Source: Flavobacteriales bacterium
GTDB lineage: Bacteria > Bacteroidota > Bacteroidia > Flavobacteriales_F > PHOS-HE28
Assembly (NCBI GenBank): GCA_026129465.1
Contig: JAHCIA010000001.1
Span: 753,964 to 817,963 of the forward strand
Direction: 5' to 3'
Length of the DNA stretch: 64,000 nucleotides
Below the pieces are notes generated by a model. The model was given only the letters and a program-made list of their open reading frames with translations, did not search any database and had not been told where the DNA came from. The translations under genes and the position numbers were made by a program. Of this stretch, positions 1 through 8,886 are shown piece after piece (positions within the stretch are counted from its first letter, which is position 1; every line of letters starts with the position of its first letter).

Positions 1-1521
1 CCCGCGTCCGAGGTCCACCGTGCGCACGATGCCATTGTCGATGCGCGACACGCCTTTCACCGTGCTGCCCACCCAGATGGTACCCTTGCTGTCGCGATAG
101 AGCGCCTTCACATGGTTGTTGGCCAGGCCCTCCGCTTCGGTGTACACCATGGGCACGGTGCCGGAGGAAGGGATGTGCCTTCGCACGCCGTTGAAGCCGC
201 CCACCCAGATCTCGCCCGATTGGCCCGCTTCGAGCGCCGTGGCCGTTCCGAAGCCCAGTCCCGCGCTGATCTCCACCTCGTTCTGGATGCGGCCGGTGCG
301 CGGATCGAAGCGCGATACGCCCGCGTTCTCCGTGCCGATCCAGATCCAGCCCTTGTCGTCCTCCACCAGGCAGCGGATGAAATTGCTGGGCAGGCCCCTG
401 CCCTGTTGCACGGTGATCGTGCTTTCGAGTTTACCACTGGGGCCCAGGATCACCAGGCCGCCATTGGTGCCGATCCAGGTGCGGCCCTGTCGGTCCTCCA
501 GCAGGGCGAAGACCTGCGGATCGGTGAGGCCGTCAGGCTCTCCGAAGCCCACGAAATATTCGCCCTTGAAGATGTCCAGGCCGTTGTCTTGCGTGCCGAT
601 GAGCAGGTTGCCTTCGCGGTCGCGCGTGATGCAGCGCACGAAGAGGCTGTGCAGGCCATTTCCGGTGTGGAAGGTGCGCGTGCCTTCCGGTCCGATCACG
701 GCGGCACCGCCATCGATGGTCCCCACCCATACACGTCCCTCGGCATCCTCGCCGAAACAGATGACCGTGGAGGAGCGCAGACCATTGGAGATGTCGTGCC
801 TGGAGGGTGCACCGCCAGCAGCGGAAAAGCGGAAAGCGCCGCCGCCTTGTGTGCCCACCCACAGGTCGTGGCGACTATCCTCATGGATCGCCGTGGGTTG
901 GAAGATGCCATGCACACCAGGCAGGTCCAGTGTGGTAAGCTTGCCATCGCGCCAGGCACGGACCTGACCGCCGTCTTCCACCAGCAGCAGGCGGCCATCG
1001 TGGGAGGTGATCACGCCCAGGAGCTTGTCACGCAGTCCTTCCGCCTGGCCCATGCGTTCGGCCTTCAGGTCATCTTCCGCGTCGGTGGGATCGAAGCGCC
1101 AGAGACCATGGCCCACGGTGGCCGCCCAAATGTGGCCCTCCGCGTCCTGCGCCAATCCGGTCACCGCGCTGTTCATGCCCGGCGCCAGGTCGAAGGCCTT
1201 GAAGGAACGGTCATTGTAGCGGGTGATGCCACCATCCAGGTGACCGGCCCACAGCATGCCATCACGATCGATGAGGATGGTGCGTGCTCCGTTGCTGGCC
1301 GCTCCCTTGTCCGTTCCGTGGTTCACCACCTCGATGCCGTCATAGCTGGCCAGACCGGTCTCCGTACCCAGCCAGACCAGGCCATGGCGGTCCTGCACAG
1401 CGGCGTACACCTTGGCCGAGAGTCCCTGCGCCACGGAGATGTTCTCGAAGAAGAAGCGTTGCGCCCCAGCGGTGAAGGCGAGCGCCGTGAGCAGGGACGT
1501 GGCGACAAGACGCTGTTTCAT
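1..1521 (-). CDS. Reg_prop beta-propeller sensor protein, N-terminal part (cut by window edge)
   Basis: The reading frame is open for 507 codons from ATG 1521 to the first base of the window, so the C-terminus is missing. It begins with a signal peptide (MKQRLVATSLLTALAFTAGA) and then carries about ten two-component-regulator propeller repeats of the form WxGTxxGLxxYDG, for example VWLGTETGLASYDG, LWAGHLDGGITRYN, LWVGTQGGGAFRF and IWIGTENAGVSRFD. In Bacteroidota such periplasmic seven-bladed propellers usually sit ahead of a Y_Y_Y domain, a membrane helix and a histidine kinase or a LuxR/LytTR output domain. Which output this protein has lies outside the window. The start overlaps the stop of the TPR/caspase gene by 4 bp (ATGA), so the two are probably translated together. 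Confidence 0.85.
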   Translation of the reverse strand, partial: MKQRLVATSLLTALAFTAGAQRFFFENISVAQGLSAKVYAAVQDRHGLVWLGTETGLASYDGIEVVNHGTDKGAASNGARTILIDRDGMLWAGHLDGGITRYNDRSFKAFDLAPGMNSAVTGLAQDAEGHIWAATVGHGLWRFDPTDAEDDLKAERMGQAEGLRDKLLGVITSHDGRLLLVEDGGQVRAWRDGKLTTLDLPGVHGIFQPTAIHEDSRHDLWVGTQGGGAFRFSAAGGAPSRHDISNGLRSSTVICFGEDAEGRVWVGTIDGGAAVIGPEGTRTFHTGNGLHSLFVRCITRDREGNLLIGTQDNGLDIFKGEYFVGFGEPDGLTDPQVFALLEDRQGRTWIGTNGGLVILGPSGKLESTITVQQGRGLPSNFIRCLVEDDKGWIWIGTENAGVSRFDPRTGRIQNEVEISAGLGFGTATALEAGQSGEIWVGGFNGVRRHIPSSGTVPMVYTEAEGLANNHVKALYRDSKGTIWVGSTVKGVSRIDNGIVRTVDLGRG

Positions 1522-3683
1522 CGCGTGAGGTCGAAGAAGGATGGATCGCCCGAGGCGGCGTCGGACACCACCACCGTGTTGTTCACGCTGTCGCTATAGT
1601 TCTGCATCTGTGCCTTCAGCGATCCGTAGTTGAAGAAGCTGTAGATGTCGTCCGGCCTTGCGTCCACCGGTATCCAGTAGGCGCGGCCGCCCACGGTTCG
1701 TCCGTGGCCGCTGTACCACACCAGGATGGTGTTCACCTTGCCCGTGCGGACCAGATCGCGCAGCTCCACGTTGAAGAGGCGCTCCATCTGCTGCTTGGTA
1801 AGATTCTTCTTGTGGATGGTGCGCTGCACGTTGTAGTTGGCGAAGGCCTTCTGCATGCGCGCGGCTTCCGCAGGTCCGTTCTGTATGCCTGGGAAAGAAC
1901 GATAGTCACCGTTTTCGATGTGCACCAGCCATGTGACGCCCGTGGCGTTGGATGGAGCGGGCGCGGCGGGTTTGACCGCCGCGACCGCCTCGGCCCTGCG
2001 CACGATGTTGAAGGTCTCCTCGGCAGTGTTGCCGTACTGGTCTTCCGCGCGGATGGTGAAGCGGTCCTTGTCCTTCACATCCAGCTTGATGCTGAAGTCG
2101 GGATCGAGCCGGTCGGAGGCGTAGCTCGCGTTCACACCGTTCACCGTAACGAGCCGGATCATGCTGGCATCCTGCACCGTGCCTTCGATGAAGAGTTCCG
2201 TGGCACCGGCACCGATGGTCACATCGCGGGCCGCACCGGGTTTGGGCGACGTGAGGGCGATCACCGGGGCCACGCCCTCCGAGCGCTCCACCCGCAGCAA
2301 TTCGGTGCTGAAGTTGTCGTAGACGTCGGTGGCCCGCACCTCGATCTCCTTGTCGGTGGGCGCGAACGGTATGGTCACCACGAAGCTGGGGTCCTTCTCG
2401 TCCTTGGCGAAGTCGGCGGGGACACCGTTCACCGTGATGCTCTTCAGCAGGCTCTTGTCTCGCACATAGCCGGAGACCTTCACATGCCGCAGCGCCGCGG
2501 ACACCTGCACCAGGTCGCCAATGCGGAAAGGCTCCACCACGTTGACCACCGGGGGGTCGCCCTCCCGGTTCATCTCATAGAGCAGTCCGGCGATCCGGTC
2601 GCGCGATGCGGCGATCTGCTGACGCTGTGCATCACTGTTCCCACCACGTTGGTCCACGGCACGCTGGGCCAGGTCCAGGTCGCGCAGCGCGCCATCGAGG
2701 TCAAGATTGGCTTCGCGGCATTCGGCGCGGAAGAGCAAGGCCTCCAGATCGTTGGGGTCCTCCAGCACCACACGGTTCAGGTCGTTCACGGCGTTCTGAT
2801 GCTGGCCATAGCCGTGGTAGTAGCGCGCCCGTTGCATATAGACGTCGCGGTCCGTGCGCTCCAACGCGATGCAGCGGCTGATGTCGTCGATGGACTTGGC
2901 GTACTCCTTCAGCTTCGCGTAGGCCTTGCTGCGCGTGAAGAGCGCGTCGGTGTACTGCGGGTCGAGTTCCAGCGCGCGTGTGCATTTCTCCACGGCCTGG
3001 TCCAGGGTGCGCATGCGCATGGCGGCCGCGGTGTACGTCTCGTGCAGGGCAAGCTTCGTTTCCGCCAGGGCCACATAGGCGGGCAGATAGAGGTGGTTCC
3101 AGGCCAGCACTTGGTCCAGGTCGGCCTCTGCGGCCTTGTAGTCGCGCATGGCCATGCGTACCAGCGCGTGCGTGTAGTGTGAATCGGTGGTGGCCTTTAG
3201 CGCCAGGGCCCGGTCGGAAGCGTTCACGGCGCGGTCCAGGTCGTTGAGCGCGAGGCTCGCACGCGTGAGCAGCAGCAACGCCCGCATGGACTTCGGGTCC
3301 CGGCGCAGGGCCTGTTCGCAGAGGTCGCGCGCCACGGTGAAGCTGTCCACCTCCATGCTGGCGTCCGCGGCATCCACGGCGAGCACGGCATCGGTGGGGC
3401 GTTGGGCCACGGCGTTGCGCAGATCGGTGGCCGCCATGTCCTTCCGGCCGAGCAGGGTGAACACTTCGGCCCGCGCACGATAGGCCTCGATCAGGCCCGG
3501 CTCCACGGCGATGGCCAACCCGTACTTCTCGGCCGCGCGTTCAAGTTCCTGCTGCTTGCGCAGGGCATGGCCCTCCTTCAGAAAGGGCTTGCCGGATTGG
3601 GCCATGGCCGAACCGGCCAGGATGAACAACAGACACACCGGCAGCAAGCGCCGGAGGACGACGTGACGTGGTGGTAGGAACAT
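1518..3683 (-). CDS. TPR protein with truncated, cysteine-less caspase-like domain
   Basis: 721 residues from ATG 3683, chosen because it opens a signal peptide (MFLPPRHVVLRRLLPVCLLF, ending GSAMAQ); the frame stays open further upstream without a leader. Roughly residues 30-370 are TPR repeats, followed by repeated modules in which ITVNGV and LVTVNGV strands recur. The last ~130 residues resemble a C14 caspase p20 domain: WLVHIENGDY, then the catalytic-His motif WYSGHG. Where homologues have DACxSGPSFY, this protein reads SDAASGDPSFF, so the nucleophile cysteine is an alanine. The protein ends four residues later without a p10 segment. Family knowledge suggests a periplasmic or surface scaffold; loss of protease activity is my inference. 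It overlaps the downstream propeller gene by 4 bp. Confidence 0.8.
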   Translation of the reverse strand: MFLPPRHVVLRRLLPVCLLFILAGSAMAQSGKPFLKEGHALRKQQELERAAEKYGLAIAVEPGLIEAYRARAEVFTLLGRKDMAATDLRNAVAQRPTDAVLAVDAADASMEVDSFTVARDLCEQALRRDPKSMRALLLLTRASLALNDLDRAVNASDRALALKATTDSHYTHALVRMAMRDYKAAEADLDQVLAWNHLYLPAYVALAETKLALHETYTAAAMRMRTLDQAVEKCTRALELDPQYTDALFTRSKAYAKLKEYAKSIDDISRCIALERTDRDVYMQRARYYHGYGQHQNAVNDLNRVVLEDPNDLEALLFRAECREANLDLDGALRDLDLAQRAVDQRGGNSDAQRQQIAASRDRIAGLLYEMNREGDPPVVNVVEPFRIGDLVQVSAALRHVKVSGYVRDKSLLKSITVNGVPADFAKDEKDPSFVVTIPFAPTDKEIEVRATDVYDNFSTELLRVERSEGVAPVIALTSPKPGAARDVTIGAGATELFIEGTVQDASMIRLVTVNGVNASYASDRLDPDFSIKLDVKDKDRFTIRAEDQYGNTAEETFNIVRRAEAVAAVKPAAPAPSNATGVTWLVHIENGDYRSFPGIQNGPAEAARMQKAFANYNVQRTIHKKNLTKQQMERLFNVELRDLVRTGKVNTILVWYSGHGRTVGGRAYWIPVDARPDDIYSFFNYGSLKAQMQNYSDSVNNTVVVSDAASGDPSFFDLTR

Positions 3684-3739: not shown

Positions 3740-5203
3740 TCAGACCCGGAAGCGCAGGAAACCGAAGCTGTAGGAGACCATGCCGGGATCCTGGATGAAG
3801 AGCGAGAGCACGTCGCGCGTGGCGACTCCTCCCTCCCATCCGCCCTTCACGGAGCGGAAGGCGAGACCGAAGGGCACGAGAGTCTTGTACATGCCGCCCA
3901 GCCCCAGGCCGGTGTTGAGACCCAACCAGGGCGTGGCCATGAACTCACCTCCCACACCATACATGGGCGCGGTCAGGTTCCCTGGGGTCTCGTTCATGGG
4001 CACCACCACGTCGAAGCCCACCTGGGTCTTCTCCTTGATCCAGAAGGCGCCACCGGCGCGCAACTGCATGGGCATGGCCACCTGCTTTTCCTTGAGGCCC
4101 TCCCATTGCAGCACGCCATCATCACCGAAGAAGCGTTGTGCCTGGTCGTAGAAGTTGTAGTTGTCGAAACCGCCATGGTCGATCCGTTCCAGCACTTCGT
4201 CCGCAGCGGTGTAAACGTTGCCGTTCCACGTGATGGAGCCGATGTTGACGACCGCGAGCCCGAAGCGCATGGAGCCTTCCTTCTCCATGGCCAGGCCGAT
4301 ATCGCCGGAGAAGCCCTTGCCCACCGAGGTGAAACCCGAGCCCACAAGCGCGCTGGGATTGGTGAACGAGGCCGTGCCGTAGTTGATGTCATAGCCGGGT
4401 GACAAGGAGGAGTACGCCGTGAGCCTGCCGCCATCCTCACTGATCTCCATGATGCCGAGGCCCTGCAGGTAGCGCAAGGTGATGCCCGCGTGCAGGTCCC
4501 ATGCGCCCATGCGCGTCATGCGACGGCCCCAGCCCAATGCGTATTCGCGCACCCACTGGTGGGTGATGGTGCTTCCGTCCATCACCTGCGTGATGCGCCT
4601 TGGCGAACTGGCCAGCCCATAGCGGACCTGCCCGGCCTGCTCCACAGTGAGATCGGCGCGGGCCACCGTATCACCCGTGGTGAGGACCACCAGATCGAAG
4701 TAGGCCGCGTTGTAGCCCTGGAAGAGAATGCTGGAGGCCTCCCTGCCGAAAGTGCTGTACCACTGGATGCGGTCCATCACCTGGAATGCGAAGGCACCCG
4801 CGCTGTCCGTGTGCAGTGTGAACCCGATGCCGCGCACATCGATGTTGGCGGTGAAATCCTTGCCAGCGAAGGCGGTGGCCGCCATTTGCTTCTGCTGTGC
4901 GTTGAACTTGATGTTGTTGTCCTTGAGGAAATGCTCGTTGATGTCCTTGCGCGTCAAGGCGTCGCAATACACCGACCCGGAGACCTCCAGCAGACCGAAG
5001 GTGACCTTCTTGTCCTCGTAGGGCAGCTTGATGCCCAGGTTGGCCGGGTTGATGCCGATGGCCTGGTAGTCCGTGGCGAAGGCCGTGGACACCCATTTGC
5101 CGGTGTGCAGGAAGGCGGCGCCTTCCATTTGGGCGGCAACCGTGGTGGATAGGACCAGCCCCAGCACCATCAGCGCCAGGGCGGCGTAAATGCGGTGGAA
5201 CAT
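3740..5203 (-). CDS. DUF5723 family outer-membrane protein
   Basis: 487 residues with a signal peptide (MFHRIYAALALMVLG, cleaved after TTVAAQ). The mature N-terminus contains DYQAIGINPANLGIK, the hallmark of DUF5723, a Bacteroidota family predicted to form an outer-membrane beta-barrel. The rest alternates amphipathic strands with Gly/aromatic residues and ends SFGFLRFRV, a C-terminal aromatic strand of the kind BAM recognises. The biochemical role is not known. It lies 70 bp downstream of fabI and 56 bp upstream of the TPR/caspase gene, and has its own -7 box within an inverted repeat. Confidence 0.8.
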   Translation of the reverse strand: MFHRIYAALALMVLGLVLSTTVAAQMEGAAFLHTGKWVSTAFATDYQAIGINPANLGIKLPYEDKKVTFGLLEVSGSVYCDALTRKDINEHFLKDNNIKFNAQQKQMAATAFAGKDFTANIDVRGIGFTLHTDSAGAFAFQVMDRIQWYSTFGREASSILFQGYNAAYFDLVVLTTGDTVARADLTVEQAGQVRYGLASSPRRITQVMDGSTITHQWVREYALGWGRRMTRMGAWDLHAGITLRYLQGLGIMEISEDGGRLTAYSSLSPGYDINYGTASFTNPSALVGSGFTSVGKGFSGDIGLAMEKEGSMRFGLAVVNIGSITWNGNVYTAADEVLERIDHGGFDNYNFYDQAQRFFGDDGVLQWEGLKEKQVAMPMQLRAGGAFWIKEKTQVGFDVVVPMNETPGNLTAPMYGVGGEFMATPWLGLNTGLGLGGMYKTLVPFGLAFRSVKGGWEGGVATRDVLSLFIQDPGMVSYSFGFLRFRV

Positions 5204-5273: not shown

Positions 5274-6086
5274 TCAGCCGGTGAACTTGTCCATCACCTC
5301 GGGGGTAACGCCCGTGGCGCTGAAGCCGCCATCGTGGAAGAGGTTCTGCATGGTGACGTAGCGCGTGAGGTCGCTGAAGAGGGCGATGCAGTAGTTGGCG
5401 CAGGCTTCAGCAGGCGCATTGCCCAGCGGACTCATGGCCTGCGCGAATCCGAAGAAGCCGTCGAAGCCTTTCACGCCGCTGCCCGCCGTGGTCCAGGTGG
5501 GGCTCTGGCTCACGGTGTTCACACGCACCCCTTTGGCCTTGCCCAGCCGGTAGCCCCAACCGCGTGTAATGGACTCCAGGAGGGCCTTGGCGTCGGCCAT
5601 GTCACCGTAGTCTGGGAACACGCGTTGCGCGGCGATGTAGCTCAGGGCCACCACGCTGCCGCCCTGCGCCAGGGCATCGGCCTTGTGCGCCGCCTGCAGC
5701 ATGCGGTGCAGGCTCATGGCGCTCACGTCCAGCGTCTGCTTGTACCATTCATAATTCAGATCGTCGTAGCTGCGGCCCTTGCGCACATTGGGACTCATGC
5801 CGATGCTGTGCAGGATGAAATCGAGCGGACCGCCGAGTTTCTCCACCGCCCCATCGAACAGGGCCTTCAGATCGGTGTCGTTGGTGGCATCGGCGGGGAT
5901 GATGGCGCTGCCGGTGGCCTCGGCCAGTTTGTTGATCTCGCCCATGCGCATGGCCACCGGGGCATTGCTCAGCACGAAGGCGCCACCCTCTGCGTGGGCC
6001 AGTTCGGCCACCTTCCAGGCGATGCTTTGGTCGTTGAGTGCACCGGTGATGATGCCGCGTTTGCCTTTGAGGAGTCCGTAGGACAT
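5274..6086 (-). CDS. fabI: Enoyl-[acyl-carrier-protein] reductase (NADH) FabI
   Basis: 270 residues, the normal length for FabI, which catalyses the last reduction of each fatty-acid elongation cycle in the cytoplasm. The Rossmann start KRGIITGALNDQSIAWKVA has the FabI-type split glycine motif. The active site is SYIAAQRVFPDY at 149-160: Tyr150, Tyr160 and Lys167 give the characteristic Y-x6-K triad that separates FabI from ordinary SDRs. HSIGMSP (93-99) and the substrate loop near 205-230 are also recognisable. It lies 58 bp after recN and has its own -7 box. FabI is the target of triclosan-type inhibitors, and I see no FabK or FabV alternative in this window. Confidence 0.97.
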   Translation of the reverse strand: MSYGLLKGKRGIITGALNDQSIAWKVAELAHAEGGAFVLSNAPVAMRMGEINKLAEATGSAIIPADATNDTDLKALFDGAVEKLGGPLDFILHSIGMSPNVRKGRSYDDLNYEWYKQTLDVSAMSLHRMLQAAHKADALAQGGSVVALSYIAAQRVFPDYGDMADAKALLESITRGWGYRLGKAKGVRVNTVSQSPTWTTAGSGVKGFDGFFGFAQAMSPLGNAPAEACANYCIALFSDLTRYVTMQNLFHDGGFSATGVTPEVMDKFTG

Positions 6087-7980: not shown

Positions 7981-8886
7981 TCAACTGCCGCGCATCATGT
8001 TCTGGTACTGGCTGATGTGGCCGGGGTCGATGATCTGCAAGGTGTTGAAGAGCTTCGACTTCTCCGCCGGATCGGCGGGCTTGTAGATCTCCACCAGCTC
8101 CTGGTACTTGGCGTTGAAGAAGACCTGCAGGTTGTAGCTGGCAGGCTTGGCCTGGTGCACGGTCTTGAGCTTTTCGATGCTCTGCGCAATGGTGCGGCGC
8201 GCGGCTACCACGTCCTCGGTCATGGTGTCCATGCCCTCACGGTGGTAGGTGTAGAGCAGTTCGCGGAAGGGGCGGAACACGGCCTGCACCTGGTTGTCCA
8301 TGAGCCAATAGCGGTTGCGCTCGCCTTCATAGGCCTTCCAGCCCGTTTCCGAGGCGCTCTGGGCGTTGTTCACCACCTGCTGGGCCAGGTTGTAGTAGTC
8401 CGTTCCGCCCAGGGGCGAGAAGGTGTCCCCATCCAAGCCCAGGATGAAGTAGGCATAGAAACCCAGCAAAGAGGACAGGTTGTTCAGGTGCCGCTCGGGC
8501 GTGAACTCGATCTGGGTGTTCTCCAGGAAGTTGAACTGCACCTGGTTGTCCACCAGATCCAGGATGGGGCTGGTGTAGTCTGTGCCGAACACGGGCCGCG
8601 AGTAGATCACCTGCAGGTTGCCCTCGAAGCGGTCCATGGTGGGCATGTTGGTGATGGTGAGCAGCATGTTGAGTTCGATGCGCTCGTGCGGGGCGTAATT
8701 GAAGTTGGTGAAGCGGCGGCTCTGGTAGAATTCCTTGATCGCCGTCTCCAACGACTGGAAGAAGCGCGGGGTGGCGTTGGCGATCTGCGGCGCGATGACG
8801 CTGATCTGGCAGTTGAACTCCTGGGCGCGCACCTTGGAGGTGAGCAGCACCAGGGGCAGCAGGAGGATCGGGAGTCGACGCATCAT
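7981..8886 (-). CDS. porD: DUF4835/PorD family protein (type IX secretion-associated)
   Basis: 301 residues with a signal peptide (MMRRLPILLLPLVLLTSKVRAQ). The mature part begins EFNCQISVIAP and contains conserved DUF4835 features: FNYAPHERIELNMLLTI, the Arg-Pro-Val-Phe/Asp-Tyr pair, and a helical C-terminal half (LGGTDYYNLAQQVVNNAQ). Pfam DUF4835 is now usually named PorD and is linked by genetics in Porphyromonas to T9SS cargo export; its mechanism is unclear. The start overlaps the coaBC stop by 4 bp. Three genes with T9SS sorting domains later in the window fit a working T9SS. I assign the family with confidence and the PorD name with less. Confidence 0.85.
   Translation of the reverse strand: MMRRLPILLLPLVLLTSKVRAQEFNCQISVIAPQIANATPRFFQSLETAIKEFYQSRRFTNFNYAPHERIELNMLLTITNMPTMDRFEGNLQVIYSRPVFGTDYTSPILDLVDNQVQFNFLENTQIEFTPERHLNNLSSLLGFYAYFILGLDGDTFSPLGGTDYYNLAQQVVNNAQSASETGWKAYEGERNRYWLMDNQVQAVFRPFRELLYTYHREGMDTMTEDVVAARRTIAQSIEKLKTVHQAKPASYNLQVFFNAKYQELVEIYKPADPAEKSKLFNTLQIIDPGHISQYQNMMRGS

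Follow-up and report, generated by a model that had tools for sequence, protein, structure and literature searches.

A truncated caspase homologue without its catalytic cysteine, encoded beside a predicted receptor adenylyl cyclase in a Flavobacteriales genus

The gene pair at the locus

The window, that is, the whole stretch of DNA analysed here, comprises 64,000 nucleotides of contig JAHCIA010000001.1 (positions 753,964 to 817,963) from a Flavobacteriales bacterium (assembly GCA_026129465.1). At its start lie a gene for a protein with TPR, Ig-like and caspase-like parts, here called the pseudo-caspase, and a gene for a propeller receptor (Table 1). “The genus” is used for the genus of the source organism, and G-numbers designate the compared genomes, one per species. 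An initial annotation of the window had described a TPR scaffold whose caspase fold is dead and has no p10 region, and had seen it as coupled to a signal receptor; the evidence given below supports this description.

The pseudo-caspase reading frame begins at the ATG at 3683; an alternative in-frame ATG further upstream would give a protein of 773 amino acids. As annotated initially, the WYSGHG motif is kept (LVWYSGHG, containing His660) and the catalytic cysteine is replaced by alanine, Ala710 falling in the cysteine column of an alignment with intact relatives. The region of the cysteine motif reads SDAASGDPSFF and the last residues are DLTR. The full C-terminus is VVVSDAASGDPSFFDLTR, followed by a TGA that overlaps the ATG of the receptor gene (ATGA). 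The stop had been placed four residues later, which is correct if counted from SFF but not from the cysteine position, after which there are 11 residues versus 104–106 in 19 receptor-paired intact relatives. The Pfam Peptidase_C14 profile matches the domain at positions 7–129 of 233 only (E 5.7e-9), and the same profile is nearly fully covered by the domains of five of five relatives (starts 2–5, ends 222–223). Based on the alignment and on this difference in profile coverage, the cysteine has been replaced and the C-terminal half, including the p10 region, is missing.

The isolated domain scores 36.4 bits against the PF00656 gathering cut-off of 21.4 (32.5 bits for the whole protein), and it has neither the His-Cys dyad nor the complete domain of Peptidase C14. 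Nor does it have the p20 plus p10 composition of metacaspases, as nothing lies beyond Arg721 and no match to the missing tail was obtained in the genome at E≤1. Homology to p20, a broken dyad and no domain matching a p10 model agree with the definition of pseudo-orthocaspases in the portion of PMC6426788 consulted. Judged by its sequence, the protein is predicted to be a proteolytically dead caspase homologue. Note that whole-protein Pfam scans reported C14 in none of four intact relatives (G072, G186, G076 and G070), whereas domain-only scans reported it in five of five (G072, G076, G070, G257 and G092); the missing matches are taken as a filter effect.

Table 1. Features of the locus, with positions numbered from the first nucleotide of the window.
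Feature	Positions	Strand	Basis
TPR / Ig-like / pseudo-caspase protein, 721 aa (amino acids)	1518..3683	(-)	Open reading frame, Pfam, orthologues
Signal peptide, residues ~1-27, hydrophobic stretch then AMA/Q	3603..3683	(-)	Hydropathy and sequence inspection
TPR superhelix, residues ~30-345	2649..3596	(-)	Pfam; AlphaFold helices, predicted local distance difference test (pLDDT) mostly ~90 or more
Two Ig-like beta domains, residues ~376-565	1989..2558	(-)	AlphaFold strands; Pfam Glucodextran_B over 497-562
p20-like pseudo-caspase domain, residues 583-721, without C-terminal (p10-equivalent) half	1521..1937	(-)	Pfam C14, alignment
His660, catalytic-His position, kept	1704..1706	(-)	Alignment
Ala710, at catalytic-Cys position	1554..1556	(-)	Alignment with intact relatives
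C-terminal Arg721 and stop TGA, overlapping receptor ATG (1519-1521)	1518..1523	(-)	Sequence; Arg in 39/39
Propeller receptor, N-terminal part; continues beyond the window	1..1521	(-)	Pfam, hydropathy
DUF5723 gene, next upstream	3740..5203	(-)	Pfam, tblastn of neighbours
Enoyl-ACP reductase (FabI-like), conserved syntenic anchor	5274..6086	(-)	Pfam, synteny

Conservation across the genus

The genus sample consisted of 45 genomes, of which 39 have a readable gene C-terminus; G001, G015 and G030 gave an N-terminal match only, and G020, G025 and G028 gave weak matches only. In all 39 genes the catalytic cysteine is absent, its place being taken by Ala in 37, by Val in G014 and by Ser in G023; exactly 11 residues follow its position, and the terminal residue is Arg. 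The stop codons are TGA in 22, TAG in 14 and TAA in 3. All but three genes retain the histidine (36 of 39), the exceptions being G031 and G006 with Ala and G039 with Leu, and Ser715 is invariant in a 12-row alignment. Because the cysteine loss and the end of the protein are common to all 39 genes, they are due neither to chance nor to an assembly fault; the initial annotation had argued against an assembly gap from the overlap of stop and start. Because no gene within the genus is intact, the window gene is not a decayed copy. The features that the annotation had proposed to check in relatives are shared: cysteine loss in 39/39 (Cys to Ala in 37/39), truncation in 39/39 and the gene pair in 38/39.

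Mean pairwise identity among 36 genus genes is 0.73 for the caspase part, 0.61 for the TPR part, 0.56 for the Ig part and 0.32 for the linker. Nonsynonymous to synonymous substitution ratios (dN/dS, Nei-Gojobori), which are rough, are lowest in the caspase part for 13 of the 14 least diverged pairs, the exception being G021/G007. The caspase part is therefore the best conserved domain of its protein and is under strong purifying selection. A dead domain that carries the strongest constraint in its protein is what would be expected of a working pseudoenzyme.

Intact relatives outside the genus

The genome set contains no other genus of the source order. A draw of 395 genomes from the class gave matches in 58, of which 15 are genus members, and a phylum-wide draw gave a match in 1 of 395, the source genome itself. 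We aligned 87 caspase genes: 39 from the genus, 19 with a complete SpoIIE receptor adjoining, 2 whose adjoining receptor is interrupted where the contig stops, and 27 beside which no receptor was recognised, some of these genes sitting at contig ends. Class matches that were not fetched or that have no C-terminal part (e.g. G163, G212, G291) are outside these counts.

Cysteine and histidine are both intact in 19/19 paired genes, in 2/2 with a cut receptor and in 18/27 unpaired genes. The tail after the cysteine position is 102–107 amino acids long in all 48 non-genus genes, and among the aligned genes its loss is seen only in the genus. Intact paired relatives are clearly homologous, with the same domain order and the same gene pair, and the Arg aligned with Arg721 is invariant in 19/19 of them. 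As the same pair in other families has an intact cysteine and C-terminal half, it is the dead form that is derived. The initial annotation would have read intact relatives at this locus as signs of decay or error; they number 0/39 within the genus and 19/19 for the pair in other families.

Eight unpaired family members in other genera (L094, L095, L102, L104, L181, L182, L190 and L191, from G160, G190, G070, G111, G246, G273, G219 and G235) have lost the cysteine (Thr 4, Ala 2, Gly 2) and kept the full tail. Going by these 8 of 27 genes, the cysteine was lost more than once in unpaired copies.

The receptor and its output domain

The full receptor gene (G000:C1:752377-755484) encodes 1035 amino acids, and its output domain lies outside the window. 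The product consists of a signal peptide, Reg_prop repeats, Y_Y_Y, a transmembrane segment at ~738-759 and a class III cyclase domain (Guanylate_cyc) at 821-1002. Six catalytic cyclase positions, which we take to be two metal-binding Asp, the Lys and Asp for ATP, Asn and Arg, are all present in 29/29 complete genus receptors. Both domain and residues are those of a class III adenylyl cyclase, and the presence of all six positions points to an active enzyme that is predicted to produce cyclic AMP (cAMP).

A propeller gene lies directly downstream on the same strand for 38/39 genus pseudo-caspase genes; for the 39th (G040), 76 matching receptor amino acids precede the contig end. The cyclase domain is seen in 30 of the 38. 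The other eight are cut by the fetched stretch, and for five of these (G044, G011, G027, G006 and G013) a whole-genome search covers the cyclase. Since the genes overlap or lie close together, co-expression is implied. Hydropathy shows an N-terminus resembling a leader in each protein and a single transmembrane segment in the receptor, which would probably place the pseudo-caspase, with its TPR part, and the propeller in the periplasm, so that the sensory parts of both proteins are probably outside the cytoplasm.

The two genes can also be missing as a pair. Neither the caspase nor an orthologous receptor was found in G020 or in G028, each 99% complete, and the best receptor matches there (1.4e-101 and 3.7e-104) are at paralogue level. 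Coa, the gene at 7981-8886, RecN and FabI are still in their usual order in both genomes, and the stretch beyond FabI holds no caspase and no receptor. Both genes were likewise not found in G025, which is only 83% complete and gave no FabI match.

Outside the genus the receptor output differs. Pfam assigns Guanylate_cyc instead of SpoIIE to 3/3 genus receptors and SpoIIE to 6/6 outgroup receptors, and BLAST finds SpoIIE in 19/19 complete outgroup partners. Note that one example per output domain was used for BLAST and that the SpoIIE match itself defined membership of the 19-receptor group. For a tree of the sensory region, output domains were removed, 15 short or duplicate rows were dropped and the genus was thinned to 14, leaving 66 rows, which were analysed by a quick method. 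The 14 genus cyclase receptors form one group (Shimodaira–Hasegawa-like approximate likelihood ratio test, SH-aLRT, 100) beside five outgroup caspase-linked receptors (SH-aLRT 99), inside the caspase-linked SpoIIE group. Given this nesting, the receptor kept its inherited sensory half and acquired a different output, and the cysteine loss, the truncation and the output-domain swap fall on one branch. Eighteen same-genus propeller paralogues fall elsewhere in the tree, and replacement of the receptor by a propeller-cyclase paralogue of the same genus is ruled out by the tree for the sensory half.

In a tree of 58 of the 87 caspase rows, the genus is one group (100/100) on a long stem of 1.29, within a mostly paired clade (100/98). 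There it is sister to all other rows of its clade, not to the five families of the sensory tree.

In each genus genome the receptor query has between 10 and 39 matches (32 for G000), and many of these fall on the cyclase domain; across the 45 genomes, the genus carries a large set of class III cyclases. The PADLOC matches were confined to one of a Pycsar cyclase in the cyclase domain and one in the TPR region, which we read as domain resemblance.

Interpretation and alternatives

Taken together, the data suggest a two-gene system in which protease-based signalling has been rebuilt around a dead protease. We assign a probability of roughly 0.55 to the reading that the pseudo-caspase, derived from an old caspase/propeller unit, acts in the periplasm as a pseudoprotease subunit through which a receptor adenylyl cyclase is regulated. 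The exported TPR/Ig-like/caspase protein and the propeller receptor would be an old two-gene signalling unit of the source class, which in most of the lineages found has an intact caspase and a receptor with a SpoIIE-type phosphatase. On the stem of the genus the caspase would have lost its nucleophile and C-terminal half to become a p20-only pseudoprotease, and the receptor output would have become a class III adenylyl cyclase. The intact caspase may once have acted on or with the receptor, of which only binding would remain in the genus: the pseudo-caspase may bind the propeller/Y_Y_Y region in the periplasm, as co-receptor or regulator, and so set cAMP output.

A tentative extension, to which we give clearly less weight, is that a caspase-based transmembrane signalling unit spans several Bacteroidota families and that in the genus the combination of protease and phosphatase gave way to a pseudoprotease that serves a receptor adenylyl cyclase as its ligand-binding subunit, the protease loss and the output change being functionally linked. 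More speculatively, truncation right after an invariant Arg would mimic a processed p20 subunit in a permanently “cleaved” form. Orthocaspases cleave after positively charged residues (PMC6426788), so that a protein ending at this Arg may look like a large subunit after processing.

Several points weigh against the proposed regulatory role. That the two proteins touch, which of them controls the other, that there is a ligand and that cAMP is made are all inferred. The histidine has been lost in 3/39 genes, a sign that selection does not fully constrain the active-site surface itself. Genetic linkage of the two proteins is not universal, since 18/27 receptor-unpaired genes keep both catalytic residues and since two SpoIIE receptors that group with caspase-linked ones (G092:C56, L235, and G128:C10, L243) have the caspase gene elsewhere. 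Inactivation and swap are single events on one long branch, and their link may be coincidence. The structure prediction called for initially gave models of the TPR and Ig parts but only a weak caspase part, both in the full-length protein (pLDDT ~30–75) and as an isolated domain (50.6). A Foldseek search with the poor isolated-domain model had a caspase-1 large-subunit chain as its best match (E 9.5e-4), which is only a hint, and with the full model it returned mostly TPR proteins, with no caspase among the best 50 matches listed.

The most serious competitor, though clearly less probable, is that the pseudo-caspase has a separate task in the periplasm, as a scaffold or as a decoy for substrates, and shares no more than a transcript with the receptor. 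Its TPR and Ig domains are binding modules, and some family members have no adjoining receptor, as this would have it. However, the pair is kept across many families, G020 and G028 lack both genes, and among paired genes the dead caspase is always with a cyclase and the intact caspase always with SpoIIE.

We consider a cFLIP-like role, in which the pseudo-caspase would inhibit or titrate some other, intact caspase of the cell, to be improbable. Two genomes, G042 and G039, do hold an intact caspase elsewhere, but in 43/45 genus genomes, including the source, the tail profile has no match at E<1e-5, although a very divergent tail could escape it. The proteins in question (L226 in G042, L227 in G039) are separate and caspase-like, with hydrophobic N-terminal stretches, DACFSG or DACFGG motifs and their own tails. 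A PF00656 search of the source genome gave no match; it missed the window gene too and so is uninformative on other caspases.

Scarcely more can be said for an enzyme with another nucleophile, for example the conserved Ser715: this serine and, in 36/39 genes, the histidine are kept, but relatives have a C-terminal half to complete the domain, which is absent here, and three genes have lost the histidine. A split enzyme whose missing half is supplied in trans is disfavoured still more. Truncation near the p20/p10 boundary of caspases, and Foldseek neighbours of the poor domain model that are mostly cleaved large-subunit chains, are what it would predict; yet the missing-half profile finds nothing in the source genome at E≤1, the only matches in the genus below 1e-5 (G042 and G039) are separate complete caspases, and the cysteine is absent in any case. 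Finally, a decayed gene, sequencing error or recoded stop, brought to mind by the intact relatives in other families, is refuted by the same end in 39/39 genes through three stop codons, by the purifying selection, and by a receptor gene that starts at once, with no space for the missing ~93 amino acids.

If the pair is a signalling unit as we propose, bacterial caspases would be given a testable role in transmembrane signalling rather than cell death. The pair also provides a comparative case in which a protease became a pseudoprotease and the receptor paired with it took on another output; both the intact and the dead version of the two-gene unit are open to direct comparison.

Related systems

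It had been suggested at first that the arrangement would be new. Pseudo-orthocaspases as such are already known: Klemencic et al. 2019 (PMC6426788), in the text consulted, give 8.6% pseudo-orthocaspases, mostly from Alphaproteobacteria and Cyanobacteria, with 10 of 1078 Bacteroidetes sequences. The combination of a dead half-caspase with a receptor cyclase was not found in the literature searched. No description of a caspase/propeller-receptor pair was found in full-text literature, subscription papers being outside this coverage. The words “cyclase” and “operon” do not occur in PMC6426788, nor does “cyclase” in PMC3501461, a study that in the part consulted includes an operon survey and gives the share with an intact dyad as 84%.

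The genus protein shares with bacterial pseudo-orthocaspases a prokaryotic C14 p20 fold with a lost dyad, for which a scaffolding or signalling role has been proposed; those proteins, mostly from Alphaproteobacteria and Cyanobacteria, have a Tyr/Ser dyad, whereas here the histidine is usually kept, Cys is replaced by Ala and the domain ends 11 residues later (compared with the consulted part of PMC6426788). The Trypanosoma pseudo-metacaspase TbMC4 is likewise an inactive caspase homologue kept for a function, but it is eukaryotic, has a Tyr/Ser dyad and is processed by an active metacaspase (PMC6426788, same part). Closest are the intact TPR/Ig/caspase and propeller-SpoIIE pairs of other families of the class, for which we found no name; they have the same domain order and pairing and differ in their intact Cys and His, full C14 domain and phosphatase output.

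Propeller/Y_Y_Y receptors of Bacteroidota include hybrid two-component systems with histidine kinase output. The genus receptor resembles these in its Reg_prop repeats, Y_Y_Y and single transmembrane segment, but its output is a class III cyclase. The best PDB profile match of the window protein is the MALT1 paracaspase, with the GHG motif region aligned, but this is not significant (E 0.12). MALT1 also has a caspase fold beside Ig domains and, unlike the window protein, is an active enzyme.

Neighbouring genes

In the source genome and in a few other genus members, FabI and the caspase gene are separated by a DUF5723 gene. It was not found there in most, and it probably lies outside the two-gene unit.

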